Notes: generated by a model not told the origin, from the letters alone. A DNA stretch of 64,000 bases from Candidatus Cloacimonadota bacterium (GCA_018433885.1 JAHDQK010000019.1:1-64000), one strand, 5' to 3'; shown: positions 217 through 23,865, numbered from the stretch's first letter. A program made the numbers and translations.

Positions 217-2430
217 GTGGTGATCGACTTCGGCAGTGACTTTCTTGATCTGGCTCCGATAGAAGAGGAACGGCTATTATACAAGGAAGAGGCTCAGCTC
301 TATGGTCGGTTCTGCCAGGAAGTGATTCGCAGGTTGTATGGAGCAGAATCCAAAGTATTAGCCTGGAAACGGATCACCAGTGACTATAACGGCAAAAGAC
401 TGGTTCCAGAACTCTACAACCTCAAAGGACCCAGGAAAGAGAGAGCGCTACGGGAATGGCTGCGCATCTACCATGAGACCAATCTCGATATGTATGCCCT
501 GATCCACAAGAGCAAAGGCAAGTACAAAGAGCGCAAGATCAGCTATCAGGAACAGCAATACCTACTGCATCTATTGCTTAATCCCAATCGCATCAAGATC
601 GGTTCTGCCATCGTTAACCTCAAACAGATGAGCAGAAACGGGATTATTGAATCTCAGGCCAATGAACGCACGCTCAGACGCTGGTGCGAGGAATGGGCTG
701 CCAGGCATCCGGCAGAATGGCATCAAGCCAGAGATGGCAGCAAGTTTGTCTCAGAGAATCTCATCAAGAGCATTATGAGAGATGACAGCACTCTGGAAGT
801 GGGACAGGTCTGGGTGGCTGATGGACATACCCTCTCCTTCGATATTCTCAATCCTCAGACCGGCAGAGCCCAACGCATGACGATGATCATGGTGATGGAT
901 TGGGCAAGCCGATATCCTGTGGGAGCATCACTTGCCTTTACCGAAGATAGCCAGCATATCCTGACAGCCTTCCGCAATGGCTTTATCAACTGCGCTCAGA
1001 TCGCCGATAACAATAGCGGAACGATGGCGGTGCTACCCAAGTATGTCTATCTGGATAACGGCAAAGCATTCCGAGCCAAACTATTTCATGAGAGATGGGA
1101 AGAGCATGACCTGAACAAGGAACTGGGTGGTATCTTCCCCCGGCTCAATATCGGAGTAAGATTCGCCGAGAGCTACAATGCCAAAGCCAAGATCATCGAA
1201 CGCTTCTTCAAGACCTTCCAGGAGCAGTTTGAGCGGTTCATCACTACCTTTAGAGGCGCATCGATTGACGACAAGCCATCTGTGCTGAATCGCAATGAAG
1301 TCTGGGCTAAGAAGCTCTATACCGGTAAGCCACCGACTATTGAAGAGACGATGCAGATGATCGCCTTCTACGTACGCTTCTGCTATGGAGAGACACCGCA
1401 TACCTCACTTAACAGACGCACACCTTATGAAGTCTTCAATGCTGCCAGGATAGCCGAGAGTCGCCAGATAGAGATCTCCAGGCTCAACTTCCTGATGATG
1501 GCGATGGAGCGCAAGAATATCCGCGCGGAGGGTATCAGACTGGATAAGAAGGTCTACTGGCACCGGGAACTGGTTAATCATGTGGGACAGCCCTGTATCA
1601 TCCGGTTCGATTACAGCGATGCCAGATGGATAGTGGTCTATGATAAGAACGATGTATTCATCTGCCAGGCAGCACTCCGCAAGACGCAGCATCCGTTCAT
1701 TGAGGTCTCGATGGATAAGGCAGTCTCACATAAGGAACTCAACAAGGAGTACAAAGAGATCAAGGGCCTCAGGCGGGAGAAAGAACGCAATGCTAAGAAG
1801 TGGGTGGTGAACTCACAGAAAGCGGTTGATAGAATCTTGAGCAACTCCACAGCCAAGCAGGAGAAACTGGAGGATCAGGGTGCCAGAGCGCTTTTCAATA
1901 GTCCTCCCATGCTGGAAGCGCCGCCCAAGGATAGTGACGAGATCATCGAGGAGATGACCAGAAAGATGATGATGAGACTGCCCAAACATCCGGATATGCT
2001 GAGTCAGGAACAACGGGAACAGCTTGATCCCAAGGAAAAGGAGAGATTGGCAGAGCAGGAGCGGGATAGGATAATCCTCAAGGAAATCAAAGAATCATTC
2101 GAACGTATAGGACTCGAATACCAGACCAGTAATGATAAACCTCCCCTGGAGTTTGCGATAGGCTTCAGCCAAACAGCCAGAGAGTACTACAAAGCTCAAC
2201 AACGAGCCCATGCAGAACAAGAAGCATCAGATAAAGATGAAGCTACCACTTCCACCACAACAACCGCTGATGCAGGTACAGAAACTGATGATCATGATCC
2301 AACGGAAACGATCTCCAACCCAGCAGAAGTGCCTGATGATAAGCAAGCACAGGATGATGCCAGGACTGGGCAGTCACCCTTCGCACACCTCTCTAGAGCA
2401 GAACTCCTCAAACGCATCGGGATAAATTAA
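217..2430 (+). CDS. DDE transposase, Mu A / TniA (TnsB)-like
   Basis: The catalytic transposase of the element, expected to bind the ends and carry out strand transfer with the ATPase encoded next. The retroviral-integrase-fold catalytic triad is visible, numbered from the GTG at 217: Asp202 in VWVADGHTLSF, Asp280 in VYLDNGKAF and Glu328 in KAKIIERFFK. A Mu-type C-terminal beta-barrel region (about 450-520) follows, then a long charged coiled C-terminus with a Thr/Asp-rich tail. The N-terminal third (to about 190) has the helical DNA-binding character of the family. The start is uncertain. The same frame stays open back to base 76 with coding-like residues (QIHLNTCIDGL, then YETYEDYLDFERKL), but it contains no ATG, GTG or TTG before 217. 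The true N-terminus may therefore be lost, frameshifted or begin at an unusual codon. The downstream ATPase gene begins 12 nt later after a good Shine-Dalgarno sequence. Confidence 0.9.
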   Translation: MVIDFGSDFLDLAPIEEERLLYKEEAQLYGRFCQEVIRRLYGAESKVLAWKRITSDYNGKRLVPELYNLKGPRKERALREWLRIYHETNLDMYALIHKSKGKYKERKISYQEQQYLLHLLLNPNRIKIGSAIVNLKQMSRNGIIESQANERTLRRWCEEWAARHPAEWHQARDGSKFVSENLIKSIMRDDSTLEVGQVWVADGHTLSFDILNPQTGRAQRMTMIMVMDWASRYPVGASLAFTEDSQHILTAFRNGFINCAQIADNNSGTMAVLPKYVYLDNGKAFRAKLFHERWEEHDLNKELGGIFPRLNIGVRFAESYNAKAKIIERFFKTFQEQFERFITTFRGASIDDKPSVLNRNEVWAKKLYTGKPPTIEETMQMIAFYVRFCYGETPHTSLNRRTPYEVFNAARIAESRQIEISRLNFLMMAMERKNIRAEGIRLDKKVYWHRELVNHVGQPCIIRFDYSDARWIVVYDKNDVFICQAALRKTQHPFIEVSMDKAVSHKELNKEYKEIKGLRREKERNAKKWVVNSQKAVDRILSNSTAKQEKLEDQGARALFNSPPMLEAPPKDSDEIIEEMTRKMMMRLPKHPDMLSQEQREQLDPKEKERLAEQERDRIILKEIKESFERIGLEYQTSNDKPPLEFAIGFSQTAREYYKAQQRAHAEQEASDKDEATTSTTTTADAGTETDDHDPTETISNPAEVPDDKQAQDDARTGQSPFAHLSRAELLKRIGIN

Positions 2431-2442
2431 TAGGAGGATAAC

Positions 2443-3153
2443 ATGAAACAGGGAACACTCGTCAGAACGCAGAACGTGATAGCCGCAGACAAGTGCATCG
2501 AATACCTGCAAACCCGACCCAAGCTGGAGATGGTGGGACTTGGCTTGCTCTATGGCAGACCGGGACTGGGAAAGACCACTTATGCCAGTCGTATAGCTTT
2601 CAGTAAGGGCTATCTATATCTCCGGCTGGAGGCGACTACCACCCCTAAAGCCTTTGCCACCAAGCTGCTATTGGCCTTATACAAGAGGTTTGGTATGGGA
2701 GATTACATCCCATACGGTACAGCTAATGACCTTTTCATGATGTGTATAACGGTTCTGGAGGATCACAAGGATACGATCATAGTTGTTGATGAGATAGACT
2801 ACGCTTTCCGGCATCCCCAGCTCTTAGGTGCAATCAGGGATATAGTGGATGTGACCACAGCGATAGTGATCCTGGTCGGGATGCAGAATGCCAAGGATAA
2901 GCTCAATCAGATCAACGAGTATTACTTCGACAGATGCAACTTCTTCTATGAGTTCCAGGACTTGCCCAAGAAAGACATCGCCCAGTTATGCAGTGAGATC
3001 CTGGAAATCAGGTTCCATCCTGATATTGTGGAATATGTCCACTTCCACTCCTGCGGCAATGTCCGCAAAGCCATGAAGCTTATCCGTTCAGTGGAAGAAA
3101 TCGGCAGATACAAGAACCTTGAAGTAGTCTCCCAAGCCGATCTGGATGATTGA
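2443..3153 (+). CDS. AAA+ transposition ATPase, Mu B / TniB (TnsC)-like
   Basis: A DNA-binding ATPase that in Mu and TniAB/Tn7-like elements selects target DNA and activates the transposase. Visible features: Walker A GRPGLGKTT at about residues 40-48, Walker B IIVVDEID at about 112-119, and a sensor-1-like VILVGMQNA at about 142-150. At 236 aa the length fits TniB/MuB proteins. It starts at an ATG preceded by AGGAGG (in taataggaggataacatg). Its 3' end overlaps or abuts the small winged-helix gene, so the three genes form one transcription unit. Family assignment rests on the Walker motifs plus its position directly after a DDE transposase. Confidence 0.88.
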   Translation: MKQGTLVRTQNVIAADKCIEYLQTRPKLEMVGLGLLYGRPGLGKTTYASRIAFSKGYLYLRLEATTTPKAFATKLLLALYKRFGMGDYIPYGTANDLFMMCITVLEDHKDTIIVVDEIDYAFRHPQLLGAIRDIVDVTTAIVILVGMQNAKDKLNQINEYYFDRCNFFYEFQDLPKKDIAQLCSEILEIRFHPDIVEYVHFHSCGNVRKAMKLIRSVEEIGRYKNLEVVSQADLDD

Positions 3154-3160
3154 GGTCAGA

Positions 3161-3664
3161 ATGACAGACAAAGATCTTATCCTCAACTTCATCAATCAGT
3201 ATGATCGTCTGTTCAATGCAGAACTAATATCCAAGCTGACCAGTGTAAACATAGAAGTAACAGAAAAGCTATTACCTGAACTGCTCCAAAGCCAAGCAAT
3301 CAAGCAGATTGAAGATTGTCCTCCTATCTACGTCCGAGCCAACCGTTACCAAGCCAGGATCGGCTATCAGCATTACAAGGGCTGGACTTTCAGCATAGCG
3401 GATGCCCACAGGCTATTAGACATTCTGGAACAAGGCAGATACAAGTCCATCCGAGAGATTGCCCAAACCATAGGTAAATCCAGACAGTGGGTCTATATCT
3501 ATCTGGAGGCTCTGGCATCGATTGAAGTAGTTGATCTGAGGAAGCACGTTTATGTGGTTATCTCCCGCCAAAACGTGCCCAAAATCGGCAGAAAAGTCCT
3601 GAAAGGTATATTAGGTCAACTCCGGAGTTTGAATAGGATTGGGTGTTTTAGATTAATCGAATAG
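3161..3664 (+). CDS. Small winged-helix protein of the transposition operon
   Basis: Unrecognised 167-aa protein, third in the transposition operon. The C-terminal half contains a helix-turn-helix-like stretch (SIREIAQTIGKSRQWVYIYL), followed by a beta-wing-like segment (VVDLRKHVYVVIS). The N-terminal half (DLILNFINQYDRLFNAELISK, VTEKLLPELLQ) looks like a second HTH of the type that asks whether an element is present, so the protein may be a tandem winged-helix DNA binder. I chose the ATG at 3161, which has GAGGT a few bases upstream. An in-frame ATG at 3146 overlapping the ATPase stop is the alternative. It has no zinc fingers, so it is not an evident TniQ/TnsD. It could be a target-site or end-binding accessory factor, or a repressor. 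Confidence 0.7.
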   Translation: MTDKDLILNFINQYDRLFNAELISKLTSVNIEVTEKLLPELLQSQAIKQIEDCPPIYVRANRYQARIGYQHYKGWTFSIADAHRLLDILEQGRYKSIREIAQTIGKSRQWVYIYLEALASIEVVDLRKHVYVVISRQNVPKIGRKVLKGILGQLRSLNRIGCFRLIE

Positions 3665-3684: not shown

Positions 3685-5235
3685 CTATGGCTTCTCCTGC
3701 TTTAGATGATTCTGCATCGCCTGAAGCGTTCTGAAACCAAGTTTCCTAGCAGCTTGACTTTGGCTTGAGCTTGTTTCGATGCTTTCCCGAATGGCTTCCA
3801 GCTTGATCTTTTGAATGTCACTCATTAGATTACAATTCCCCTCTATATTAACTCGTAGCTGCTCAGATATCGGGAATCTGATACACGAAATATTGTTCTC
3901 CGAAGGTCGCTTTTTATAGGACTCTCGGGCTAATGTATCGGCCGTTATCACTGGATCGGAACTAAGTATACAGCAACGCCTTACAACAGAAATGAGCTCT
4001 CGAACATTTCCCTCCCATTGATTACTCAAAATAAATCCATAAGCGGTTTTATCGAAGCTCTTTGCTTGGTACAAAATAGAGAATTTTGCTTTAGAAGCTA
4101 AATCTGACAATTCTTTATTAGTGTCTTCTAAGCATTTGTCTGCAATAAGTACCACATCTTTTCCACGACTTCTGAGTGGGGGTAGCTCAATGATACCTTC
4201 GGATAAACGGAAAAACAAATCGAGTCTAAGCTTATCAGGACTATTTGTGGCAGACACCAATCTTACATCTACCTTCTCTCCTTTATCACTACCTATGGGC
4301 TTTACTATGCCATCCTCTAGCACTCTTAGAAGCTTAGCCTGAAGATTGTGGGACAGCTCTCCTATCTCATCAAGAAACAGAACTCCTTTATGAGCCTGTT
4401 TAAACAGACCAAGTCTATCTTCCTTTGCGTCAGTGAATGAGCCCTTAACATGTCCAAACAACTCAGATTCTGCCAATGTATCGGGCAGGTTTGCGCAGTT
4501 GAAACTGAAAAATCTCTTATTATCACGAGCTGAAGCATCCCTGTATAATTGAGCAAAAAGCTCTTTACCTGTACCGCTTTCCCCTGTGATAAGAACGTTA
4601 CGATCAAACATGGCATATTTACGAACATCATTAATCGCAGATTTTATCGTCTCGCATTCCCCGATAATCTCTTTCCCTCTAACATCACCATATAGCACTT
4701 GTCTTTTCATTTTAGTGTCAGCAGGTAGTTGTTTTTGTAGTACGTCAAAGCTGATCGAAAATGGAAAGTTTACCTCTTCCACATTTGATGTTTTTCTCGG
4801 AGTATCAGTCCATGTTTGAAGTAGGGTTGCATCATATTGAGTCCTGCCAAGTATTATAAATGAGACCGTGATGGCATTAGTTCCAGAAGATGTGTTGAAG
4901 TAAAGTGCTGTCGCTTTGCGTTTTGTTGCAAGAATTTTAGCAACCTCATCACTCATTAGTTTATGCATCACAGTAATATCTGATGTCACAAGATCGTCTT
5001 GCATTGCAATGGGATATACTGTGCAGTTATACTTTTCTTTGATTTTATTGAGATAACGCCTCAGGTTCAACTCATAGCGATCTATATAGGGGTACTGGTA
5101 GAAAGCATATACTTCATCTATCGAATGATTGCCCTTAGCCAGTATAGTTTCAATAGGGCCATAAGGTTCTACCCGCCTTGTTGCGCTTTCACAATCATGT
5201 TTCCCAATCCAACTGATTAATAAGTTCATACTCAC
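3685..5235 (-). CDS. CARF-like / sigma54-type AAA+ transcriptional activator (RtcR-like)
   Basis: Three parts are visible in 516 aa. Residues 1 to about 175 form a Rossmann-like sensor beginning MNLLISWIGKHD. It has an S-G-T segment (YFNTSSGTNAITVSFIILG) resembling the ligand-binding strand-loop of CARF domains in RtcR. Residues about 190-430 are a sigma54-activator AAA+ domain: Walker A GESGTGKE near residue 215, Walker B LFLDEIGE, and the arginine-finger region FFRLSEGIIELPPLRSR. The C-terminus is a Fis-type HTH (SQSQAARKLGFRTLQAMQNHL). The sigma54-contacting loop reads GSFTDA instead of GAFTGA, but Phe and Thr are kept. RtcR senses a nucleotide or RNA ligand and switches on a divergent operon, and the same layout is seen here with the HNH/membrane-protein operon. 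The inferred role is ligand-triggered control of that operon. I found no canonical -24/-12 site in the divergent spacer. Confidence 0.82.
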   Translation of the reverse strand: MSMNLLISWIGKHDCESATRRVEPYGPIETILAKGNHSIDEVYAFYQYPYIDRYELNLRRYLNKIKEKYNCTVYPIAMQDDLVTSDITVMHKLMSDEVAKILATKRKATALYFNTSSGTNAITVSFIILGRTQYDATLLQTWTDTPRKTSNVEEVNFPFSISFDVLQKQLPADTKMKRQVLYGDVRGKEIIGECETIKSAINDVRKYAMFDRNVLITGESGTGKELFAQLYRDASARDNKRFFSFNCANLPDTLAESELFGHVKGSFTDAKEDRLGLFKQAHKGVLFLDEIGELSHNLQAKLLRVLEDGIVKPIGSDKGEKVDVRLVSATNSPDKLRLDLFFRLSEGIIELPPLRSRGKDVVLIADKCLEDTNKELSDLASKAKFSILYQAKSFDKTAYGFILSNQWEGNVRELISVVRRCCILSSDPVITADTLARESYKKRPSENNISCIRFPISEQLRVNIEGNCNLMSDIQKIKLEAIRESIETSSSQSQAARKLGFRTLQAMQNHLKQEKP

Positions 5236-5421
5236 CTCTGGAACTAAGTTAGATACACCACGTGAAATGTCAATATATTATTCAAATCATTCAACATATT
5301 GTTGATTGACATCTCATTCTCCTAATTAGATATATCTATGTTATGCAATAAGATAAAGAAAACTGAGAGCACTTTGGAACGCCTTGCTTGTAATAGGGAC
5401 AAAACACATAAGGAGATAACA
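5236..5421. promoter_or_regulatory. Divergent promoter region of the CARF regulator and HNH operon
   Basis: The 186-bp AT-rich spacer between the divergent genes contains an 8-bp inverted repeat, ATGTCAAT (5267-5274) and ATTGACAT (5305-5312). Each arm contains TTGACA oriented towards its own gene: 5306-5311 on plus, and 5273-5268 on minus. They may be the -35 elements of two divergent sigma70 promoters, although -10 matches are weak (GATATA/TATATC at about 5329-5336 on plus, TAACTT on minus). Alternatively the arms are the operator of the regulator. A sigma54-like string TTTGGAACGCCTTGCTT (about 5373-5389) has the GG and GC doublets two bases too close for a normal -24/-12 promoter. Confidence 0.45.
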
Positions 5422-5637
5422 ATGAGTAAGTTTAGAATCAACAATGGTTACAAACAATACCTAAGTGGCAGTGGCTGGGCTTACACCCACAGACGAGTTG
5501 CTGAGAAGCAGATAGGCCATACTATCCCCAAAGGATATGAAGTTCACCATAAAAACGCTGTAAAGACTGACAACCGGCCTGCTAATCTAGCCATTTTACC
5601 TAAGGGCATCCACCAGAAAATTCACAATAACAAATAA
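5422..5637 (+). CDS. Small HNH-motif protein
   Basis: A 71-aa protein. Its C-terminal half reads like an HNH nuclease core (YEVHHKNAVKTDNRPANL, then a final GIHQKIH). The His-His, Asn-Arg-Pro-Asn-Leu and terminal His spacing matches HNH_3-type homing or phage endonucleases, which nick or cut DNA with a single metal ion. I chose the ATG at 5422 because AAGGAG sits 6 nt upstream (cataaggagataacaatg). The longer in-frame ATG at 5338 has no ribosome site. It is the first gene of the unit divergent from the CARF regulator, 12 nt before the next gene. It is very short for an autonomous nuclease and could be only a domain working with its neighbour. Confidence 0.75.
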   Translation: MSKFRINNGYKQYLSGSGWAYTHRRVAEKQIGHTIPKGYEVHHKNAVKTDNRPANLAILPKGIHQKIHNNK

Positions 5638-5649
5638 GGGGTTATCCAG

Positions 5650-6471
5650 ATGAAAAGAAGAACTCAAAACATCCATGCCCATAATACGATCAGACACGGA
5701 TACGAAGCGAAGGTGATTAACGAGTCCCTGAAAAGAGCAGGCAATAATCCACAACTCAAAGGGATTGTACACGAAGTTTTGATCAAGGATGGGATCAACT
5801 ACAATCCGGTAAACATGGTTAAAGGGATAAATGCCACACTTACAAAGAGCACAAATGCAAAAACAGTCGATGTTGTAGTAAAACAGGGCAGCAAAATCGT
5901 CGGACGAATCCAAGCGAAGGATACAGCTAACTCGATAAGCAAAGTAGTTAAGCAAGTGAAAAACGGGCAATACAATTCGGCACAGATCTTGGGTACCAAG
6001 GAGACAGCCGCAAAACTAACCGCGAGATTAGCAAAGGACGGTGTATCAAAGACAGTTAAATCGTCTGGTATAAGCTCTAGAACAACTCAAGCTATAGCAA
6101 CCAAAGCAGGAGTTAACGGGTTCACTGGATTATCCAAGGCTTGCACCACTGCAGCAAAAGGAAGTGCAGTAACAGGAGCTGTAGTTGGAACCGGTTTCGC
6201 CGTATACCAAGGGATCTGTGATCTATCTGATGGATCGAAAGACTTGGGTGAGGTCGCCCTTGATGTTGGGAAAGAAGCCGTCGGAAGTGGACTTTCCGCT
6301 GCTGGCGCAGGGGCAGCTGCTACTGCTGGCGGTGCAGTTGTTGCCACTGCTGTTACTGCTGCAGGGATAACTGGTGGAGCAGCCATAGCCTTGACGGTAG
6401 GTGCTCCGGTTGTAATAGCGGTAGGGGTTGGTTACGCGATTAAGTCGATCTGGGACTCAATCTTTAATTAG
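5650..6471 (+). CDS. Putative nuclease fused to glycine-zipper membrane domain (toxin-like)
   Basis: Not a family I can name. The 273 aa split into two visible parts. Residues about 1-120 carry a PD-(D/E)xK-like pattern: Glu in GIVHEVL, Asp in TVDVVVKQGSK, and Gln-x-Lys in GRIQAKDT. Residues about 150-273 are Ala/Gly/Val-rich and hydrophobic (GAGAAATAGGAVVATAVTAA, then GAPVVIAVGVGYAIK). Such glycine-zipper stretches are typical of membrane-inserting or pore-forming toxins and effectors. It has no N-terminal signal peptide. AAGGGG precedes the ATG by about 8 nt. It lies 12 nt downstream of the HNH gene and is presumably co-transcribed with it. Inferred role: an effector that damages DNA and/or the membrane when the CARF regulator is triggered. 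Confidence 0.65.
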   Translation: MKRRTQNIHAHNTIRHGYEAKVINESLKRAGNNPQLKGIVHEVLIKDGINYNPVNMVKGINATLTKSTNAKTVDVVVKQGSKIVGRIQAKDTANSISKVVKQVKNGQYNSAQILGTKETAAKLTARLAKDGVSKTVKSSGISSRTTQAIATKAGVNGFTGLSKACTTAAKGSAVTGAVVGTGFAVYQGICDLSDGSKDLGEVALDVGKEAVGSGLSAAGAGAAATAGGAVVATAVTAAGITGGAAIALTVGAPVVIAVGVGYAIKSIWDSIFN

Positions 6472-6536
6472 AACGAGTGCTCTGATTTAATTGATGAAAC
6501 ACAACAACACAAACAAACCTCAAGGAGGATAGAGCT

Positions 6537-6791
6537 ATGTACTTTGGTTATATGAATCAATTGCTCAAAATGATGGTCACCGTGAAGCAAATCGAACAGC
6601 TTAATCAAATCTGTAACAATCCGCAGAGGAGTTACTCTCAGGAATCAGCTGAAACAGACGGAACTTGTAATGACAAAGCTGCAAAACTTGCAGATGCTTA
6701 CAGAGCATATGGCGAGTATTGCTCACTATTTGGAATAACACCAAGCGATGAAGGATTCAAGGTGTGGTACGGCGAGAACATTGATGAGTAA
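6537..6791 (+). CDS. Small hypothetical protein
   Basis: An 84-aa acidic protein of unknown function. It starts MYFGYMNQLLKMMVTVKQIEQL and ends in a compact segment with aromatic residues (YRAYGEYCSLFGITPSDEGFKVWYGENID). No motif is recognised. The strong ribosome site AAGGAGG 9 nt upstream of the ATG supports translation. It is 65 nt after the membrane/nuclease gene and 84 nt before the large ATPase gene. A sigma70-like promoter lies in that second gap, so this gene is probably the last of the first cargo unit. An immunity or antitoxin role next to a toxin-like gene is a guess based on size and position. Confidence 0.6.
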   Translation: MYFGYMNQLLKMMVTVKQIEQLNQICNNPQRSYSQESAETDGTCNDKAAKLADAYRAYGEYCSLFGITPSDEGFKVWYGENIDE

Positions 6792-6820
6792 GCAGATGCC
6801 GTGATGAGTTCATTCAAGTA

Positions 6821-6848
6821 TTGACAATTTTGATCACTCTAACATAAT
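6821..6848 (+). promoter_or_regulatory. Sigma70-like promoter of the main defence run
   Basis: TTGACA at 6821-6826, then a 16-bp spacer, then CATAAT at 6843-6848 (6/6 and 5/6 matches). Transcription would start near 6855, about 20 nt before the ATG of the 1,432-aa gene. It is the best sigma70 match upstream of the long cargo run, so that run can be expressed independently of the CARF-controlled genes. Confidence 0.6.
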
Positions 6849-6875
6849 GGAAATTTATAGGTTGTGAGGTGAAAA

Positions 6876-12800: not shown

Positions 12801-15800
12801 ATGAAAATCGCGGTTAATCAAATCATTTCCAGCCCCCTCTTCAACGAACCCATGAGGGTTGTAACCATTACTCCTGGGGGCAACGAAGTATACGTCTTAG
12901 GCTTGGTAGGGACAAAAAGCCAAAGATTTAGGCAGGTCAATCTTACTGTCTCCCAGATTGAAGATCTTGAAATCATAGATAGCGCATACACATACGCTGG
13001 GAATGCCAATCTCCTCAGGCTCGGGTTGCAAGCCTATATACTTGGTATCGCATACGAGTTCGACCCCTATTTTGGCCTATCCATATCCAAAGTTGATCCC
13101 CTACCCCATCAGCTTGAAGCGGTATATGATTACTTTCTCAAGCTTGCCAGGATAAGGTTTCTATTAGCTGATGATGCGGGAGCCGGAAAAACCATCATGG
13201 CAGGTCTGTTGATCAAGGAGCTGAAACTGCGTGGTTTGGCTGATAGAATCCTGATCGTATGCCCCTCCAATCTCTCCTTCCAGTGGCAACGCGAGCTCTT
13301 GGAGAAGTTCGACGAGAAATTCACCGTGCTCAAAGGCTCAAACATCCGCAACCAATTCGGTTCGAACCAATGGCTGGAGCATAATAGGATAATTACTTCG
13401 TTGGATTTGGCAAAACGGGAAGACATTCTGCCAGGTTTAAAACAATCTCATTGGGATCTGGTGATTGTTGACGAAGCACACAGGATGTCCTGCTCCACGG
13501 GTGGCAAGACAGCCAGGTATCAACTAGGTGAATACTTGCGAGACATTACGGATCATTTGGTTCTCTTGACCGCCACACCGCACAAGGGAGATCCCGAGAA
13601 CTTCACTTACTTCCTGCAGCTTCTGGATAAGGACGTTTTTGCTGATGTAAAGTCTATCCGCCATGCCATGGAAAACCAAAGAGCCCCTTTCTACCTGCGC
13701 AGAACCAAGGAAGCAATGGTCTATTTCCCAGAGAGAGACAGCGCCGGAAACTGGCTACAAGCTAAGATATTCACCAAGAGGATAACCCAGACTATTGCTT
13801 TCCAGATAGACGGTGCGGAATTTGATCTCTACAGAAACATCACCAACTACGTTAAGCGACAAAGCGCTTTGGCTGCCGCAGATGGTAGCAATCCAAGAGC
13901 AAAGGCCATCGGCTTCCTTATGTCCATGTATCAAAGGAGATTGGCTTCCAGCACCTATGCTATGCGCAAGAGCCTGATAAACAGGGCAAATCGCCTTGAA
14001 GACGCCTTGAAGGATGCCTATAAACTGGCTAATCAGGCACCTCCAACAATTCCGGATGAAGAAGAATGGGAAGAGATGGAGGAGTATGAAAGAGAGAAGC
14101 TGGAGCAGATATTGGAGGCGATGTCTCTTGTTGAGAATAAAGAACTGGTGAAGGCTGAGATTGCCGATTTGCGTGCTTTTGCCAAAGAAGCCGAAGCAGT
14201 GGAGCTAGCCAACCAGGAAGCTAAGCTGGCTAAGCTCAGGTTTCTGCTCCAACAAGAGGGATTCTTCGAGCATAAGGACAGACGCCTTTTGATCTTCACC
14301 GAGTTCAAGGATACACTCTATTACTTAGAGGAAAAGCTCAAGTCCTGGGGCTTTGCGGTTGGCTGCATCCATGGCAGCATGAAACCAGGTTCTCGTAACG
14401 AGCCCGGGACTAGGCTTCACTCAGAGCAGATGTTCAGAGAAGGGCAGATCCAGATTCTACTCGCCACAGAAGCTGCTGGAGAAGGCATCAATCTCCAAGT
14501 CTGTAACATTATGTTCAATTACGATATCCCCTGGAATCCCAACCGTCTGGAGCAGAGGATGGGACGTATCCACCGTTATGGACAGAAGAAGGATTGCCTG
14601 ATCTTCAACTTCGTGGCTGAAAATACCATTGAAGGCATGGTTCTGAAGAAGCTGCTGGAAAAACTCCAAAATATCCGGGATGCCTTGGATGATGATGCTG
14701 TGTTCAATGTGGTGGGTGAGGTAATGCCCTCTGATCAGATAGAACGCATATTAAGAGATTATTATGCAGGGAAGCTGGGAGATGCTGACCTGGAACTCAG
14801 GATTCTGCAAAACGTGGATGAAGACCGCTTCCGGGCAATCTGCCAGAATGCCTTGGAAGGACTTGCATCCAAGAAGCTGAATCTTAGCATGCTCATCGAG
14901 CGCAGAGCCCTCGCCCAAGAAAGAAGAGTAGTACCCGAGACCATCCACAGATTCATCAATGAAACTGCTAAAATTGCAAGTTTCACAATCAAGGATCATC
15001 CCAGCCTAGCACATAGCTTTGATCTTGGTAAAACTCCCGCGCATCTGAAATCATTCGAATCGGAGCCGGATTGGAAATTACCTGCCATGGCCAACCAATA
15101 TCCCCGCTGTACCACAGACAGAACTACTTCAGAGAAACATAATCTGGAGTGGGTTACTCCCGGACATCCTTTGTTTGAAGCTCTCAGACGCTTTACAGAG
15201 AGTAAGGCAAGAAAGGATCTAGCCAACGGTGCCGCCTACTACTCACTGCAACATTCAGAGCCAGTAAGGTTGGATTTTTACCGGGCCAGAATAGTGGATG
15301 GCTTGGGCATCGTAATCCATGAGCGCCTTTTCGTGGTAGAAATTGCTGAGTATAAAGAGCCGATCTTGCGAGAACCCACCATTATCGGAGATTTTATAGC
15401 TGCAGAATCAGAGATTGAACTGCCAGCAGTTGCATTCTCTGAGGAAGCCCTCAATTGGCTAAATGATAATGCCTTCATGCCTTTCCTGAATGAAATCAAA
15501 GCAGAACGGGAAGATGAGATAAAGCGGGTTGAGAAACACGTTGAGCTTTCCCTAACGGAGATCATCGGTAAAGCAGATCAGGAAATTGGTAAGCTGGAGG
15601 ATGAGATAAAACTAGGGGTCGCCGGAGCCGAAGGTCGCTTGGCAATAGCTGAAAACCACCAGGCCAATATGATCGCCCGCCGGGAGAAAAGAAGAAAAGA
15701 GCTTCAACAACAGAAGTCACTCACCTTGCAGGGCGTTGAACGTATCACCAGTATTGTGGTGCTTCCTCACCCCGAAGCCCAGTCCGATTCCTTGAAGAAT

Positions 15801-16199
15801 CTGAAGCCAAATTATGAAACTGAGGCAATTGCCATGAAAGTGGTTATGGAATATGAGGAATCGAGCGGCAGAAAGGTCTTTGATGTCCATGAAAAGAATC
15901 TCGGTTACGATATCACCAGCCTTGACGTATCCTCTGGAGAACTGCGCCTTATCGAAGTAAAAGGGATTGGAGCAGAATCCGGCACCATTATCCTTACTCC
16001 CAATGAAAGAAGAGTTGCCGAGGATAGGCCGGACTGTTTCTGGCTCTATGTGGTAACCAACTGCAATACTGCACCGCAACTTCAAGCTCCAATACTAAAC
16101 CCTGCCCAGTATCAATGGAATGAAGTGAAGAAAGTACAGCATTATACGATAAGCACGGCGAAGATAGTCGAAGGTAATAGGAATGGCACTAGGATTTAA
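12801..16199 (+). CDS. SNF2-family helicase with C-terminal DUF3883 (DrmD-like)
   Basis: A 1,132-aa DNA translocase of the kind found in DISARM (DrmD) and DUF1156/DUF499 modules. Visible features: PHQLEAVYDYF Q-like motif, Walker A DDAGAGKTIM near residue 128, DEAH box VIVDEAHRMS, LLTATPHKGDPENF motif III, and C-terminal helicase motifs (LIFTEFKDTL, LLATEAAGEGINLQ, RMGRIHRYGQK). A long coiled segment (about 905-960) follows. The end is a DUF3883 nuclease-like domain (NLGYDITSLD, then LRLIEVKGIG), which resembles a D-ExK restriction fold. The start is the ATG at 12,801; no strong Shine-Dalgarno is visible, consistent with coupling to the gene ending 13 nt before. The 3' end overlaps the next gene by 17 nt. 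Base composition is visibly richer in GC than the two ATPase genes upstream. Confidence 0.9.
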   Translation: MKIAVNQIISSPLFNEPMRVVTITPGGNEVYVLGLVGTKSQRFRQVNLTVSQIEDLEIIDSAYTYAGNANLLRLGLQAYILGIAYEFDPYFGLSISKVDPLPHQLEAVYDYFLKLARIRFLLADDAGAGKTIMAGLLIKELKLRGLADRILIVCPSNLSFQWQRELLEKFDEKFTVLKGSNIRNQFGSNQWLEHNRIITSLDLAKREDILPGLKQSHWDLVIVDEAHRMSCSTGGKTARYQLGEYLRDITDHLVLLTATPHKGDPENFTYFLQLLDKDVFADVKSIRHAMENQRAPFYLRRTKEAMVYFPERDSAGNWLQAKIFTKRITQTIAFQIDGAEFDLYRNITNYVKRQSALAAADGSNPRAKAIGFLMSMYQRRLASSTYAMRKSLINRANRLEDALKDAYKLANQAPPTIPDEEEWEEMEEYEREKLEQILEAMSLVENKELVKAEIADLRAFAKEAEAVELANQEAKLAKLRFLLQQEGFFEHKDRRLLIFTEFKDTLYYLEEKLKSWGFAVGCIHGSMKPGSRNEPGTRLHSEQMFREGQIQILLATEAAGEGINLQVCNIMFNYDIPWNPNRLEQRMGRIHRYGQKKDCLIFNFVAENTIEGMVLKKLLEKLQNIRDALDDDAVFNVVGEVMPSDQIERILRDYYAGKLGDADLELRILQNVDEDRFRAICQNALEGLASKKLNLSMLIERRALAQERRVVPETIHRFINETAKIASFTIKDHPSLAHSFDLGKTPAHLKSFESEPDWKLPAMANQYPRCTTDRTTSEKHNLEWVTPGHPLFEALRRFTESKARKDLANGAAYYSLQHSEPVRLDFYRARIVDGLGIVIHERLFVVEIAEYKEPILREPTIIGDFIAAESEIELPAVAFSEEALNWLNDNAFMPFLNEIKAEREDEIKRVEKHVELSLTEIIGKADQEIGKLEDEIKLGVAGAEGRLAIAENHQANMIARREKRRKELQQQKSLTLQGVERITSIVVLPHPEAQSDSLKNLKPNYETEAIAMKVVMEYEESSGRKVFDVHEKNLGYDITSLDVSSGELRLIEVKGIGAESGTIILTPNERRVAEDRPDCFWLYVVTNCNTAPQLQAPILNPAQYQWNEVKKVQHYTISTAKIVEGNRNGTRI

Positions 16200-17103
16200 A
16201 CAAAGAAATGCAATAAGGAAGCTTGCGGAGATACTTACCAATTTCTTGCCAGCGTCAGGTAATCCAATGTGGAAAGGACACGTTAATTTTGGTTCTGTAG
16301 CTACAAAACTCGGATTATCAGAATACTGGCATGGTGGAAGTAAGCTTCCTGCCATAATCTATCTGCTCGAAAACACATACGAGAGAAAAAGAAGTTGCTT
16401 TCAAAACTTGATAGAAGCAGTCGTATTAGAAGGGAAAACCTATAGAAACAACAAGGGTAATCCATTGTTAAGGAATGAGGTTGACGAACTGAATAAATGT
16501 CTGCTTGAGTTGGAGTTTAAGTTTCCCGATCTACATGATCCTAAGTTTCTGGAGTCTCTTGAAGATACTTTGTCCACAATCATTAAAACTCCTGTAGAAG
16601 GGTCAGTTGAGACAAGATACCGACAACAGTTGTATGAACTTAAGACAGAATTTTATGATCTTTCTAAGCTTGACAATCGGCAGGATGCAGGATATAGATT
16701 AGAAAAATTATTGAGCAGATTGTTCGAAACTTCAGGGCTAAATTCACGCTCTCCCTTTAAGGTTTGTGGTGAGCAGATAGATGGATCTGTCGAGATAGAT
16801 ACTAACACATATCTAATTGAGGTTAAGTGGACAAAGAAACCCATAAACGAAAGTGACCTATTGGTTTTCAGAGGTAAGGTAGAGGGTAAAAGCAGTTTTA
16901 CACGAGGGATGTTTTTATCGATTAACGGTTTTACCGAAGAAGCAATAACTGCAATTACGACTGGGAAACAACCAAACTTCTTTTTGCTAGACGGGTATGA
17001 CCTAACTACGGTGCTAGAAGAGAAGTGCTCATTAGGTGAATTACTAAGACATAAAATCAGAAAGCTTGCCGAGGAAGGATCTGTCTATGTTAGGCTTCCT
17101 TAG
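16183..17103 (+). CDS. Mrr-like restriction endonuclease
   Basis: A 306-aa protein. Its C-terminal half has the Mrr/REase signature: RLEKLLSRLFETSGL, then Asp in CGEQIDGSVEI and Glu-x-Lys in YLIEVKWTKKP at about residues 200-225. This is the PD-(D/E)xK metal-binding arrangement. The N-terminal half is helical and may recognise DNA or a partner. Its ATG lies inside the last codons of the SNF2 helicase gene (17-nt overlap), so translation is probably coupled. Downstream is a UvrD-like helicase after 41 nt. Expected role: double-strand cleavage within the defence system. Whether it spares DNA modified by the methylase two genes downstream cannot be read from sequence. It is more AT-rich than the helicase gene. 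Confidence 0.83.
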   Translation: MALGFKQRNAIRKLAEILTNFLPASGNPMWKGHVNFGSVATKLGLSEYWHGGSKLPAIIYLLENTYERKRSCFQNLIEAVVLEGKTYRNNKGNPLLRNEVDELNKCLLELEFKFPDLHDPKFLESLEDTLSTIIKTPVEGSVETRYRQQLYELKTEFYDLSKLDNRQDAGYRLEKLLSRLFETSGLNSRSPFKVCGEQIDGSVEIDTNTYLIEVKWTKKPINESDLLVFRGKVEGKSSFTRGMFLSINGFTEEAITAITTGKQPNFFLLDGYDLTTVLEEKCSLGELLRHKIRKLAEEGSVYVRLP

Positions 17104-17144: not shown

Positions 17145-19085
17145 ATGCCATGGTATGATAACCTATTAGATAATCAACGTGAAGCAGCCAGTTGCGATTG
17201 TGACAGAGTTGTGCTATTAGCGGGCCCTGGTACCGGGAAAACGCTAACGTTAACCAGGAGAGTCTGCTACTTATTAGAGGTGCAAAACGTTGACCCCAGG
17301 AACATTTGTGTAATTACGTTTTCCAGAGCTGCAGCAGCTGAACTAAGAACAAGAATTACCAAAGAATTGGGAGAAACATCGATACCCAAGACATCAACCC
17401 TCCATTCATTTGCTTTAAGTCAATTGCTTAGGTTAACAAAGTACAATAACAACTTACCTATGCCGATCAGGATTGCAGATGATTGGGAAGAAAGATACAT
17501 AGTGCTTGAAGACCTGAAAAGGCAACTAAGTATTCCCAAGGTTTCTGATGTGAATGATCTGTTGAATCAAATGTCCTCTGACTGGCAAAGCCTTACAGCG
17601 GATGAGCAGGAATGGGAAAACCGTTTCCCAAATCCTCGATTCATTGGAGCCTGGCGAGAGCATCGGCAAGTTTACGCATACACACTAAGATCAGAATTAG
17701 TATACCAATTAAAACACACAATTCAGCAGAACCCACAAATAATTGACAATATTGGTTTCGGGTACCTCCTTGTTGACGAGTACCAAGACCTTAACAGGTG
17801 TGACCTTGCAGTTATTAAATTCCTCTCGGAGGCAGGTATTCGGCTTTTTGTTTCCGGAGATGACGACCAAAGTATATATGGGTTTCGCAAAGCTCATCCA
17901 ATGGGAATCAGAAGGTTTACAGTAGATTACCAGCAATCAGAATCTAAGAATCTGAACATTTGTAAACGATGCGATCAGAACATACTAGACTTCAGCTTGT
18001 TCGTTGCAAGACAAGACCCCCTAAGGCTTGATAAAGTTATCGTATCTGACAGCACGAGAACAGCAGACATCCGTGTGCTGAGATTTGATAATCAAATCTC
18101 TGAAGCGGAGGGTATCTCACGGTTATGTAGTTACTTAATTAATCACGAAGGCATACAAGCGCATGACATACTAATCCTGCTAAGATCTAACAAGAATAAT
18201 TGTTTTTCAAACATCATTGCTAATAGTCTTCTTGATCATGGCATATCCGTAAAAACCCAGGAAACGGAATCAAGCGTCTTTGATGATACAGGGGGACGTA
18301 GGCTATTATCTTACCTGAGGCTTATCGTTAACCCAACAGATGAGCTTTCAATGAGATCTATAATACAAACAACCCAAGGTATAGGTGCAGGTGCAATTGA
18401 TGCTATCTATCGCATATGCCAAGAGAGAAATGTTAGATTTTGCCAATCCTTGGTTTTGATAGCCCAACAACCATCAATACTAACGACATGGGGAAATAGA
18501 ATCAAGCTTGCGTTTGAAAGTATACATGTGAATCTAGCTCGATATAATCAACTATATGATCCTTCATGTATTACAACCGCCGAACTTCAAAATCTGATTT
18601 CAATCATTTGTATCGATCTTGACCTGCAGGAGACTGAGCAAGTTCAAATCTTGAACTGGTTTCAAAACTATATTGACGCTTCTGATGATGATTTATTAAG
18701 GATAGACGATATCTTAAGGGAAAAAGACACCTCACTCGAGAATGCCGAAGTCGTCTTTGAAAAAGGCAAGGTTCATATAATGTCAATGCATAAAGCTAAA
18801 GGCCTAACCGCCGAAGCAGTTATAATACCAGCATGCGAAGATGAGCATATACCTGGACGGAATACTGAAATTGAATCCATGAAAGAAGAAATGCGCTTAT
18901 TGTACGTATCTTTGACGCGCGCAAAGCATTATTTATACCTGACCTATTGTAATAGGAGAACTGATAGCCAATGTTATGCAGGTAGTAATTTAGGTCGGAC
19001 TCAACGAACTTTATCACGGTTTCTTGCAGATGCTCCTGTCTCACCTACTGACGGTACACAATTCACAAGGAGTTTACCTAATTAA
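17145..19085 (+). CDS. UvrD/Rep-family (superfamily 1) DNA helicase
   Basis: A 646-aa protein with the full UvrD/Rep set: Q-motif LLDNQREAASC, Walker A LAGPGTGKTLTLTRR, motif Ia ITFSRAAAAEL, motif II LLVDEYQDLN, motif III VSGDDDQSIYGF, motif V SMHKAKGLTAEAVIIP, and motif VI LLYVSLTRAKHYL. It unwinds DNA 3'-5' in repair, but in this context probably processes phage DNA with the neighbouring Mrr-like nuclease. A comparable helicase-nuclease pairing occurs in Gabija, whose partner is an OLD-type nuclease rather than Mrr. It ends one base before the ATG of the methylase. The C-terminal 2B/1B regions are shorter than in E. coli UvrD (720 aa). Confidence 0.88.
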   Translation: MPWYDNLLDNQREAASCDCDRVVLLAGPGTGKTLTLTRRVCYLLEVQNVDPRNICVITFSRAAAAELRTRITKELGETSIPKTSTLHSFALSQLLRLTKYNNNLPMPIRIADDWEERYIVLEDLKRQLSIPKVSDVNDLLNQMSSDWQSLTADEQEWENRFPNPRFIGAWREHRQVYAYTLRSELVYQLKHTIQQNPQIIDNIGFGYLLVDEYQDLNRCDLAVIKFLSEAGIRLFVSGDDDQSIYGFRKAHPMGIRRFTVDYQQSESKNLNICKRCDQNILDFSLFVARQDPLRLDKVIVSDSTRTADIRVLRFDNQISEAEGISRLCSYLINHEGIQAHDILILLRSNKNNCFSNIIANSLLDHGISVKTQETESSVFDDTGGRRLLSYLRLIVNPTDELSMRSIIQTTQGIGAGAIDAIYRICQERNVRFCQSLVLIAQQPSILTTWGNRIKLAFESIHVNLARYNQLYDPSCITTAELQNLISIICIDLDLQETEQVQILNWFQNYIDASDDDLLRIDDILREKDTSLENAEVVFEKGKVHIMSMHKAKGLTAEAVIIPACEDEHIPGRNTEIESMKEEMRLLYVSLTRAKHYLYLTYCNRRTDSQCYAGSNLGRTQRTLSRFLADAPVSPTDGTQFTRSLPN

Positions 19086-19086
19086 T

Positions 19087-22059
19087 ATGATTCAAAAAGA
19101 ATGTAAACGACTCGCAGAAGTAGATTTTCCGATTGCCGCAGTTTCAAAACACGCTGTCCGAGAGAAGTCTATCCATCATGGTCATCCCAGTACTTTGCAC
19201 TTGTGGTGGGCAAGGCGTCCTCTTGCTTCGAGCCGGGCGATGCTCATGGCTCTACTATTGCCAGATCCTTGTGATCCCTACTGCCCCGGTGCCTTCAAAG
19301 AAAAAGCCAGGAAATTACTTCCTTCTTTGTGTGGGACCATCGGTGAAACCGACTATGATCTGCAACGTAAGCTACTGCATTTCATAGCTGATTTTGCCAA
19401 CTGGGATAACGCGCATAGAAAGGAATACCTGGAACTTAGCAGGGCTTTGATAAAAGCCGCCCATCCTGAGGAAACACCTTTGGTGGTAGACCCCTTTGCC
19501 GGAGGAGGCAGTATTCCATTGGAGGCACTCCGAATTGGTTGCGATGCTTTTGCCAGTGATCTGAATCCAGTTGCCTGCCTGATCCTGAAAGTAATGCTGG
19601 AAGACATCCCCAAAAGCGGTCCTGAATTGATTGATGAACTGAAGGCCGCTGGAGACAGAATTATCAAACAGGCAAAAGAAGAGCTTAAGCATTATTATCC
19701 CGCTGATCCTGATGGCTCAAAACCGGTTGCCTATATCTGGGCAAGAACGGTATGCTGCGAATCTCCCGACTGCGGAGCAGAAATCCCTCTAATGCGCAGT
19801 TTCTGGCTATGCAATAAGGCAAGAAAGAAAGTAGCCTTGAAGCCAGTAGTTAAGCGAATGGATGGAGATGTCCCATCAGTTGATTTTGAAATCTTTGAGC
19901 CAAAAAAGGAAAGCGAAGTACATGGACCTACAGTGGCACGAGCCAAAGCCACCTGCTTATGCTGTGGATCGGTTCTTCCTCCTGATCGGGTTCGATCTCA
20001 GCTAGCCAATCAAAATGGTGGTGCTGATGTAATCTTTAACGATAAAGGTGAGCGATCTGGTGGCGCAAGACTCTTAGCGGTAATTACTATTAAGGAAAAT
20101 TCAATCGGAAAGAATTATAGAATCTCGCAGCATAAAGATTACAACGTGTTGATAAAAGTCCAAGATTCAATAATGGCTATTTGTAATCAGTGGAAAGATA
20201 GTGGAAAAGGTGATGTTTGCCCCATTCCTTTCGAAGCTACTCCTAAAGGGGGTGGATCTGGCGCAGGAAGAGCCTTTTCTATTCATAGTTATGGGATTCT
20301 AAGATATAAAAACCTATTTTCAAATAGACAATTACTAAGTTTGCTCACAGTTCGTAAGTTGATTGAAGCCGAGAATAGTGCAATCATACCTGATATGTTA
20401 GCTCTTTCTTTTACAAAAGGAGCGGATGGCAATAATGCACTTTGTAGATGGATGCCAGGATACGAGAGCCCTGTGAATCTCTTCTCTAGACAAGCCATTC
20501 CAATAGTGTGGGATTTTTGTGAGTCGTCGCCAGAGTCAAGATCTAGGGGCGTTTTTCTTTCTTCTCTTGATAGTCTGATTGAAATAATAAAGAACTACTC
20601 GTCAGATAAGTCTGGACAGGTGCAACAAGCCGATGCATGTTGCTCGCCTCTACCATCTGATTCTGCTGACTTGTTCTTTACTGATCCCCCATACTACGAT
20701 GCCATTCCATACTCAGATTTATCAGACTTTTTCTTTGTTTGGTTAAAGAGACTTTTGCCAAATCATCCTCTCCTTAAAGATCCCTATAACATATCAAATG
20801 AGCTAACACCTAAGGATAGAGAAATTGTCCAAGATGAAACTCGATCATACGATAATCACGTGAAAAACCGAGAGTTTTTTGAGAATATGATGGCAAAAGC
20901 TTTTTCAGAGGGCAGAAAAACACTTGCTGATCACGGTATAGGCTCAATAGTATTTGCTCATAAATCCACGGAGGGATGGGAAGCACTACTCAATGGAATT
21001 ACCAAGGGTGGATGGACTGTTACTGGTTCCTGGCCGATCGCCACAGAAATGGGAACTCGGCTAAGAGCGCGTGAGTCTGCTGCTCTGGCTACCAGCATCC
21101 ATCTAGTTTGCCGTCCTCGACCAGATAATGCAGGAATTGGAGATTGGTCTCATGTTCTGCAAGAGCTCCCTCAAAAGGTAGGTAAATGGATTGACCGTCT
21201 GGAAGCAGAGGGAGTACGGGGTGCTGATCTGGTCTTTTCCTGCATAGGTCCAGCCCTGGAGATCTACAGCCGTTACCGCAAAGTGGAGACCGCGGAAGGC
21301 ATAGAGATAAGCATCGGCACGTATTTGGAGAAGGTATGGGAAGTGGTTGGCAGGATAGCATTGGAGCAAGTGCTGGGGTCGGCAGAATCCCTGGCAAGAA
21401 ATGGCGCTTCAGGTGCCTTGGAAGAGGATGCCCGGTTAACAGCTCTTTTCCTCTGGACCCTACAATCCACAGATACATCATCAACTGCTTCAAACGAAGA
21501 GGTGGATGACGAATCAGAAGATGATGAGGACGCTCCCAAGAAAGGGAAATCCAAAGCAGGGTTTTCTCTGGTCTATGATGTTGCCAGGCGTTTTGCGCAA
21601 CCCCTGGGGATAGACTTAAGTAAATGGGATAAACGCATCATTGACATCGATAAAGGTACTGTGCGGCTAATCCCTGTATGGGAAAGGGCAGATACGCTGT
21701 TTGGCAGTGATAAGATCTCGCGGGTCGATGCAACGTTTGAAGTCAAAGAACAGCTTGAGATATTTGAAGAATATGCTTCGAAGCCACTGCCTAAGATCAA
21801 GGGCAAAAAAGTAAAGCTATCGGGAGCAGAAGAAACTCAACCGATCATGGTCACTACTCTGGATAAAGTACATGCTGCCATGCTCTTGCAAGATAATGGA
21901 CAGACCAATGCCCTAAGAGCTCTGATCAAAAGCGAGATGGAGCGGGGACAGGACTTTCTGCGCCTGGCAAACTCATTATCAGCCCTCTATCCCAAGGGCT
22001 GCGATGAAAAGAGGTTGGTGGATGCGATGCTCTTGAGTGTGCGGAGCGTGTCCAAGTAA
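19087..22059 (+). CDS. DUF1156 (COG1743) adenine-specific DNA methylase with zinc ribbon
   Basis: A 990-aa N6-adenine methyltransferase of the anti-phage-associated DUF1156 family. It would mark host DNA so that the system spares it. Visible features: the N-terminal DUF1156 signature (SKHAVREKSIHHGHPSTLHL, followed by WWARRPL), S-adenosylmethionine-binding motif DPFAGGGSIPLEALR near residue 137, cysteine pairs of a zinc ribbon (CCESPDCG, later CLCCG), and catalytic motif DPPYYDAIPYSDLSDFFF near 535. The C-terminal third has an acidic linker (DDESEDDEDAPKKGK). I chose the ATG at 19,087, one base after the helicase stop, because the conserved N-terminus begins there. The middle (roughly 20,030-20,930) is more AT-rich than the two ends of the same gene, as expected if the target-recognition segment had been exchanged. 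Confidence 0.92.
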   Translation: MIQKECKRLAEVDFPIAAVSKHAVREKSIHHGHPSTLHLWWARRPLASSRAMLMALLLPDPCDPYCPGAFKEKARKLLPSLCGTIGETDYDLQRKLLHFIADFANWDNAHRKEYLELSRALIKAAHPEETPLVVDPFAGGGSIPLEALRIGCDAFASDLNPVACLILKVMLEDIPKSGPELIDELKAAGDRIIKQAKEELKHYYPADPDGSKPVAYIWARTVCCESPDCGAEIPLMRSFWLCNKARKKVALKPVVKRMDGDVPSVDFEIFEPKKESEVHGPTVARAKATCLCCGSVLPPDRVRSQLANQNGGADVIFNDKGERSGGARLLAVITIKENSIGKNYRISQHKDYNVLIKVQDSIMAICNQWKDSGKGDVCPIPFEATPKGGGSGAGRAFSIHSYGILRYKNLFSNRQLLSLLTVRKLIEAENSAIIPDMLALSFTKGADGNNALCRWMPGYESPVNLFSRQAIPIVWDFCESSPESRSRGVFLSSLDSLIEIIKNYSSDKSGQVQQADACCSPLPSDSADLFFTDPPYYDAIPYSDLSDFFFVWLKRLLPNHPLLKDPYNISNELTPKDREIVQDETRSYDNHVKNREFFENMMAKAFSEGRKTLADHGIGSIVFAHKSTEGWEALLNGITKGGWTVTGSWPIATEMGTRLRARESAALATSIHLVCRPRPDNAGIGDWSHVLQELPQKVGKWIDRLEAEGVRGADLVFSCIGPALEIYSRYRKVETAEGIEISIGTYLEKVWEVVGRIALEQVLGSAESLARNGASGALEEDARLTALFLWTLQSTDTSSTASNEEVDDESEDDEDAPKKGKSKAGFSLVYDVARRFAQPLGIDLSKWDKRIIDIDKGTVRLIPVWERADTLFGSDKISRVDATFEVKEQLEIFEEYASKPLPKIKGKKVKLSGAEETQPIMVTTLDKVHAAMLLQDNGQTNALRALIKSEMERGQDFLRLANSLSALYPKGCDEKRLVDAMLLSVRSVSK

Positions 22060-23122: not shown

Positions 23123-23865
23123 GAGGGCTGGCAACATTTAAGAACCATTTTGCTGAATATTGTGATCAATACGTTCTGATCGGCGGAGCAGCCAGCGCAG
23201 AGCTGATGGAGCAGTCCGGTCTTCCTTTTAGAGGAACTCGAGACTTGGATGTCGTCCTGATTGTTGAGGCAATGACAAATGAATTTGTGCAGGCTTTTTG
23301 GGACTTTATCGAGAATGGCAGGTATGATGTTAGGTCTCACAGTCAAAGTGAGAGAAAGTATTATCGTTTCGAGAACCCTGAAGACGAAATCTATCCAGCG
23401 TGCCTTGAGTTGTTTTCCAGGATTCCTGATAACATCAGATTTGAAGGTCATGGGCGTTTTACGCCAATACCTTTAGACGATGATCTATCATCTCTCTCTG
23501 CCATACTGCTTGATGATAGCTATTATCCTTTGATTTTGAATGGAAGAGATGATTTAGATGGATTGTCTTGCCTAAAGGTAGAGTACATCATTATCCTCAA
23601 AGCCAAGGCATGGTTGGATTTGCATCAACGGAAAGCAGACTCGAGAAAAGTCAACAGACAGAAAAACGATGTTATCCGCCTATTTCCCCTGCTCAATCCT
23701 AGCATGAGGATTGATATTCCGGAAGCGATCCAAGACGACCTTAAAGAGTATTTGAAAGCTATAGCAGAAGATAAAACCATAAACTTGAAAGACCTAGGAA
23801 TCAGCCAATTCGGCATCGCAGAAATTGTCAAAAGTATAGAACAGATATATGGTCTTTCTAACTAA
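23116..23865 (+). CDS. AbiEii-like nucleotidyltransferase toxin
   Basis: A 249-aa protein with the nucleotidyltransferase signature near the N-terminus: LIGGAASAELM, about 10 residues, then RGTRDLDVVLIV (the GG/S-x(n)-DxD catalytic pattern, with Asp residues at about 42 and 44). Later helical segments include KVEYIIILKAKAWLDL, as in AbiEii/MenA toxins, where a KxKA-type helix follows. AbiEii-type toxins stop translation by nucleotide transfer to tRNA. The ATG overlaps the stop of the preceding antitoxin-like gene. The pair lies between the methylase and the DUF499 ATPase, interrupting what is otherwise a conserved partnership, so it may be an addiction module keeping the island. Confidence 0.78.
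   Translation: MVRGLATFKNHFAEYCDQYVLIGGAASAELMEQSGLPFRGTRDLDVVLIVEAMTNEFVQAFWDFIENGRYDVRSHSQSERKYYRFENPEDEIYPACLELFSRIPDNIRFEGHGRFTPIPLDDDLSSLSAILLDDSYYPLILNGRDDLDGLSCLKVEYIIILKAKAWLDLHQRKADSRKVNRQKNDVIRLFPLLNPSMRIDIPEAIQDDLKEYLKAIAEDKTINLKDLGISQFGIAEIVKSIEQIYGLSN

Follow-up and report, generated by a model that had tools for sequence, protein, structure and literature searches.

In a 64,000-nucleotide stretch of DNA from a Candidatus Cloacimonadota bacterium (GCA_018433885.1 JAHDQK010000019.1:1-64000; hereafter the window), the gene for a sigma54 activator with a predicted CARF sensor lies divergent from three small genes encoding an HNH protein and proteins of 273 and 84 amino acids. The activator probably controls this divergent unit as an inducible layer placed before a restriction operon of the Hma type, all of it transposon cargo. 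The window is contig C78 of a 2.42-Mb genome that is 99.9% complete (G000). An initial annotation of positions 3685-6791 had proposed a new defense module there. Its four open reading frames (ORFs) exist as described, except that 5422 is the most likely start of the HNH gene, which would then follow an AAGGAG box at 5410 and encode 71 rather than 99 amino acids. The interval does hold these four ORFs, but it is incomplete: the colinear plus-strand run that begins with the HNH gene continues with short gaps to 28464, and the transposon ends at about 28628.

The Regulator and Its CARF Domain

The regulator matches the PADLOC profile PDLC01995 (“RtcR_PspF2--CARF_AAA_HTH”) over its whole length (E 4e-112), far ahead of the canonical RtcR profile of PADLOC, and Pfam recognizes a Sigma54_activat domain (E 1e-53) and an AAA lid. 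CARF, sigma54 AAA+ and helix-turn-helix (HTH) parts are all found within one chain by profile, fold model and Pfam, and RpoN is encoded in the genome. These matches bear out the sigma54 type assigned in the initial annotation. The N-terminal 189 residues were modeled with AlphaFold using 52 family members (pLDDT 81, pTM 0.78), and Foldseek returned 22 PDB matches to the model at E ≤ 0.001, all of them CARF proteins (Csm6, Csx1-Crn2, Cad1, Cam1, Csa3, Cami1, and Cdn1). By this model the N-terminus is a CARF domain, the sensor originally supposed. PDB sequence profiles gave nothing significant for this domain or for the 273-residue protein. CARF domains that bind cyclic oligoadenylate (cOA) typically carry K or R after strand 4, whereas the residue following the strand-4 motif is N in this regulator and P in most relatives; its constancy is partly a matter of selection because the search pattern used to collect relatives spanned that position.

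Is this protein then RtcR, the activator of RNA repair? It has in common with RtcR of the rtcBA operon its domain order and a CARF domain without a positive residue after strand 4. However, it scores 252.3 bits against the NCBIfam RtcR equivalog, far under the cut-off of 650, and therefore is not RtcR; RtcB is absent from the genome and no rtcBA genes are adjacent. The idea that toxin-like effectors had replaced repair genes has to be given up, since the regulator belongs to a clade separate from RtcR.

Defense Neighborhoods and Sigma54 Promoters of the Clade

A genome-wide scan for RtcR-like regulators gave 80 loci (L041-L120), 72 of them with a near-complete regulator. A recognized defense gene lies within ~10 kb in 61 of the 72, whereas none of the seven other sigma54 activators of G000, compared with the same reference set of defense proteins, has one. 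The kinds are type I restriction-modification (R-M) genes in 43 loci, VWA/PP2C/kinase/AAA sets in nine, and Hma, type III CRISPR and others, counts that are biased because the reference set came partly from plasmid homologs of this regulator family. RtcR-like activators stand inside or beside type III CRISPR genes in three loci (L025:5608-8864 of genome G083, L064, and L115), and the regulator gene of G083 stops 8 bp short of cas10. The link with defense is itself already published: gene adjacency tied RtcR-like CARF-NtrC AAA-HTH regulators to R-M in 2014 (Makarova 2014, PMC4012209) and placed RtcR homologs at the head of defense superoperons in the CoCoNuT paper of 2024 (PMC11090510). A regulator of this clade at the head of defense genes is not in itself a new arrangement.

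What can be added is the promoter. A -24/-12 site scoring at least 12 is found within 300 bp downstream of the regulator in 51 of 71 loci, where shuffled sequences lead one to expect 1.1; most of these sites lie within a few bases of the regulator stop codon, and they are near-perfect in most loci. On the divergent side, a sigma54 site is present for 16 of 72 regulators. The literature searched held no report on sigma54 promoters of this clade, and their presence at the expected place in most of the 71 loci supports a prediction made earlier from gene order alone. These clade-wide promoters, the 273-residue family with its E-D-QxK signature, and the divergent recurrence of that family with the regulator are new or extend what was known.

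The regulator resembles those described by Makarova in domain order, full-length profile match and adjacency to a defense operon. The relatives examined in the present analysis mostly head R-M operons codirectionally, whereas here the regulator diverges from a small nuclease/membrane-protein unit before an Hma-type system. The CoCoNuT superoperons (PMC11090510) are alike in that an RtcR homolog heads a long operon combining several restriction systems with toxin-like genes, and in the class of ligand proposed. In contrast, the orientation here is divergent, the HNH and 273-residue proteins occupy the place that BrnT-like genes take in other loci, and no CoCoNuT genes are present. The locus is not assigned to CoCoNuT, as Pfam and PADLOC find no McrBC-like core domains of that type among the operon genes.

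The 273-Residue Family and Its Neighbors

Residues ~18-131 of the 273-residue protein contain E42, D74 and Q88-x-K90, invariant in 5/5 aligned sequences down to 34% identity. They sit in the frame KGxxxE...VD...RIQxKD, which reads as the QxK variant of the PD-(D/E)xK nuclease pattern. Residues ~160-273 are Gly/Ala-rich and hydrophobic: 47 of the C-terminal 114 residues are Gly or Ala, mean hydropathy is +0.86, and 19-residue windows exceed +2.0. The signature and this tail agree with the fusion of a PD-(D/E)xK-like domain to a glycine-zipper membrane domain proposed in the initial annotation, and the protein is a putative membrane-associated nuclease of the PD-(D/E)xK type. It has no Pfam match, and Pfam finds nothing of weight in any family member. 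The PADLOC candidate family PDC-M72B is detectably similar over the nuclease-like part; its profiles have no room for the additional hydrophobic C-terminus because they are only 168 and 193 positions long. A literature search for “PDC-M72” found no paper.

Few relatives were found: two in G034 (80-81% identity) and one each in L066 (40%) and L121 (34%), to which L134 adds a C-terminal piece. In L066, from a proteobacterium and thus another phylum, the homolog (2e-52) is again divergent from an RtcR-like regulator, which heads a VWA-PP2C-kinase-AAA set, and perfect or near-perfect sigma54 sites precede the homolog (TGGCACGGCGCTTGCG) and follow the regulator (TGGCACGCAGCTTGCT). The two copies in G034 (L016:14156-16462) are tandem, codirectional and directly before cas6, in the order 273-residue genes, cas6, CARF nuclease (CARF-PD-(D/E)xK), cas10 and type III-D genes. 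The piece in L134 precedes a kinase-like/VWA/PP2C set, and in L121 a single gene separates the relative from a DNA methyltransferase gene. From these contexts it follows that the family, small as it is by sequence comparison, is defense-linked, and that its pairing with the regulator recurs across phyla. The initial annotation had staked its proposal on a CARF fold and on recurrence of the gene set; because the divergent arrangement recurs in L066, both hold for the regulator/273-residue pair; recurrence fails for the HNH and 84-residue genes. Scans of viral contigs with the protein and its relatives, and plasmid searches with the protein, found no relatives. Weak matches in L125-L127, which belong to the larger group of L066, were rejected as only the Gly/Ala-rich part aligned, and the one followed further, L136, was set aside because it encodes a short protein among housekeeping genes.

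Some further proteins may be distant relatives. Small clusters that lie close to transposase genes (L133:3183-4352 of G037 and L020:1924-3546 of G039) encode proteins of 389 and 540 residues with QxK nuclease-like and Gly-rich hydrophobic parts. A type III CRISPR operon in G040 (L135:3187-12290) reaches the contig edge, where the opposite strand encodes a weakly similar piece of a 273-residue-like C-terminus (62% over 26 residues).

The HNH protein also matches phage HNH families of PHROGs (E 3e-12), a comparison in which HNH_3 proteins appear as common mobile genes of phages. For the 84-residue protein there is no Pfam match below 0.05, none in PADLOC or NCBIfam, and only chance-level matches in PHROGs; an antitoxin role for it finds no support. 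Comparison with a second copy of the element, in genome G045, gives Nd/N over Sd/S of 0.13 for the regulator and 0.19 for the 84-residue gene, so both ORFs are real genes by selection; the 273-residue gene differs by 6 changes in 822 bases, too few to weigh selection.

Which Genes Does the Activator Control?

Upstream of the HNH gene, both half-sites of a -24/-12 element (5374-5388) stand at a fitting distance from the start codon. The other two copies of the transposon carry it unaltered, and the loose pattern TTGGNACGN{2,6}TTGCW has two matches in the entire genome. As a promoter, the element could be weak, altered or dead. The candidate activator-binding region before it contains an inner palindrome, TCAACA-TAT-TGTTGA (5291-5305), and does not on its own go beyond chance. 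Rfam finds no RNA family in 1-30000.

Several observations count against control of the three genes by the activator, or against the roles given to them. No canonical sigma54 promoter was found before the HNH gene in the window, and the spacer of the element at 5374-5388 is short. The GAFTGA loop of the regulator reads GSFTDA, a variant that is rare among the family and retains F and T. The HNH and 84-residue genes appear in no locus other than the copies of this element. The AlphaFold model of the 273-residue protein, from a three-sequence alignment, is unusable (pLDDT 40), so that the nuclease call rests on conserved residues of few sequences. Might the three genes be unrelated passengers of the transposon, beside the regulator by accident? 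The lack of a canonical promoter and of recurrence of the HNH and 84-residue genes fits this, as does the abundance of HNH_3 proteins as mobile phage genes. We nevertheless think it very unlikely: the regulator/273-residue pair is divergent again in L066 with a perfect sigma54 site before the 273-residue gene, the arrangement is kept in three genomes, and selection acts on the 84-residue gene.

The main rival is co-control of the whole gene run, in which the activator drives a single long operon reaching from HNH to GmrSD, the entire Hma-type system is induced, and the three small genes are minor accessories at its head. In most relatives the sigma54 promoter directly precedes the main defense operon; L061 has HmaA-HmaB-HmaC after the regulator, and the regulator of L098 diverges from HmaA. 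Every gene to 28464 has the same direction with short gaps, and the stretch from 6791 to 6876 shows no terminator-like site. Against this, the best sigma70-like promoter of the window, its sole 11-of-12 match in 64 kb, stands right before the gene for the tetratricopeptide repeat (TPR) protein, and is identical in G045 although the sequence preceding it differs. This site favors a three-gene induced unit before a constantly expressed restriction operon, an operon structure proposed from spacing and consensus sites, and leaves the long operon rather doubtful.

What Does the CARF Domain Sense?

The CARF domain of RtcR binds 5′ tRNA halves with a 2′,3′-cyclic phosphate (PMC7790460), and E. coli RtcR is not activated by oligoadenylates (PMC9650030). 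It too has no positive residue after strand 4, and another ligand has been suggested for it (PMC4012209). No convincing Cas10 was found in G000, the one match being below cut-off with a model that also responds in E. coli; the module accordingly does not qualify as a canonical type III CRISPR accessory. A ligand other than cOA is favored because of the lack of Cas10 and the unresponsiveness of RtcR to oligoadenylates. By analogy with RtcR, an infection-linked nucleic acid may be sensed, RNA ends (fragments with 2′,3′-cyclic phosphate) being likelier than cOA; this is the least certain step. Were cOA the ligand, the module would be the transcriptional arm of type III CRISPR signaling, picked up by a transposon. 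The type III neighbors of relatives keep this reading open, as the 273-residue family adjoins the type III-D locus of G034, clade regulators stand within the type III loci of G083 and L064, and the regulator has a CARF fold. It is unlikely, however, given the absence of Cas10, the N or P in place of a positive residue, and the behavior of E. coli RtcR.

The Transposon and Its Cargo

Judged by their neighbors, the genes are cargo of a 28.6-kb Mu/Tn7-like transposon (Table 1). Its transposase gene is cut at the start by the contig end and encodes 864 residues in G045, which holds the same 28.5 kb at 94% identity, flanked by other chromosomal genes; the right end is therefore placed at ~28628. 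The transposon is common to three genomes (window 1-28628; G045:C4 11777-40257, with L018, L141, and L142; and L019), with two of the three copies at different chromosomal sites and the third, in G044, cut by a contig end. It carries genes for a CI/LexA-like repressor and TnsB- and TnsC-like proteins, with the whole defense island as cargo. The copies differ by 0-12% depending on the gene, a mosaic that suggests the element has undergone internal recombination.

HmaA, HmaB and HmaC are all present downstream, as in the Hma system of PADLOC. Unlike that system, they are interleaved with TPR/AAA, Mrr, UvrD, HTH, AbiEii-like and GmrSD genes. The AbiEii-like gene, a weak match, overlaps the MarR-like gene inside the operon, possibly as a pair resembling a type IV toxin-antitoxin.

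Table 1. Features of the transposon in the window.
Feature	Position	Strand	Evidence or remark
TnsB/MuA-like transposase	217..2430	+	Mu-transpos_C E 1e-14
TnsC/TniB-like AAA ATPase	2443..3153	+	AAA_22 E 4e-12, TniB E 6.5e-5
Winged-helix protein of transposition gene set	3146..3664	+	weak HTH matches
CARF-AAA+-FIS-like HTH sigma54 activator, 516 aa, RtcR_PspF2 clade	3685..5235	minus	PADLOC, Pfam, CARF fold model
Candidate activator-binding region, ATGTCAAT...ATTGACAT arms	5267..5312	.	position fits upstream activating sequence
Sigma54-like -24/-12 element, TTGGAACG-CC-TTGCT	5374..5388	+	spacer 2 bp below consensus
HNH_3 endonuclease-like protein, 71 aa	5422..5637	+	Pfam HNH_3 E 1.5e-13
Putative effector, 273 aa	5650..6471	+	alignments, hydropathy, PDC-M72B E 9e-7
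84-aa protein	6537..6791	+	under purifying selection
Sigma70-type promoter-like site, TTGACA-16-CATAAT, 11 of 12	6821..6848	+	27 bp before TPR gene
TPR / AAA ATPase protein, 1432 aa	6876..11174	+	Pfam
AAA ATPase, 533 aa	11186..12787	+	Pfam
HmaA-like SNF2 helicase	12801..16199	+	PADLOC HmaA E 1.5e-172
Mrr-type nuclease	16183..17103	+	Mrr_cat E 8e-9
UvrD-like helicase	17145..19085	+	UvrD-helicase E 2.6e-47
HmaB-like DNA methyltransferase	19024..22059	+	PADLOC HmaB E 4e-112
MarR-like winged HTH protein	22148..23122	+	domain search
AbiEii-like nucleotidyltransferase (weak)	23116..23865	+	E 0.0065, below cut-off
HmaC / DUF499 ATPase	23891..26695	+	PADLOC HmaC E 6e-97
GmrSD-family restriction protein	26779..28464	+	GmrSD_N E 1.8e-28; HEC-05 E 1e-104

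A Layered Defense

Under the reading we prefer, an activator controlling the three-gene unit, the CARF domain would keep the AAA+ ring inactive as long as there is no infection. An infection-linked nucleic-acid ligand would free the ring, and the activator would then, in this host, open sigma54-RNA polymerase at a site preceding the HNH gene. Nuclease and membrane proteins would be produced as an induced second layer, with nuclease activity, membrane insertion and cell death as presumed effects, and the Hma operon, on its own sigma70-like promoter, would be permanently ready. Such a design, in which a nuclease/membrane layer is induced on top of standing restriction, resembles the one proposed for RtcR-headed superoperons (PMC11090510).

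It is possible, and we put it forward tentatively, that the 273-residue proteins form a family of mobile membrane nuclease effectors that lack their own sensor and are recruited by unrelated defense systems (Hma, kinase/VWA/PP2C, type III-D CRISPR, and R-M), and that CARF-gated sigma54 transcription, not a second messenger bound directly, decides when they fire. If so, the CARF-gated effector would be the transcriptional counterpart of CARF-fused effectors. The element offers a testable case of CARF sensing converted into gene expression during infection, and the analysis singles out a small family of candidate membrane nucleases found repeatedly next to different defense systems.

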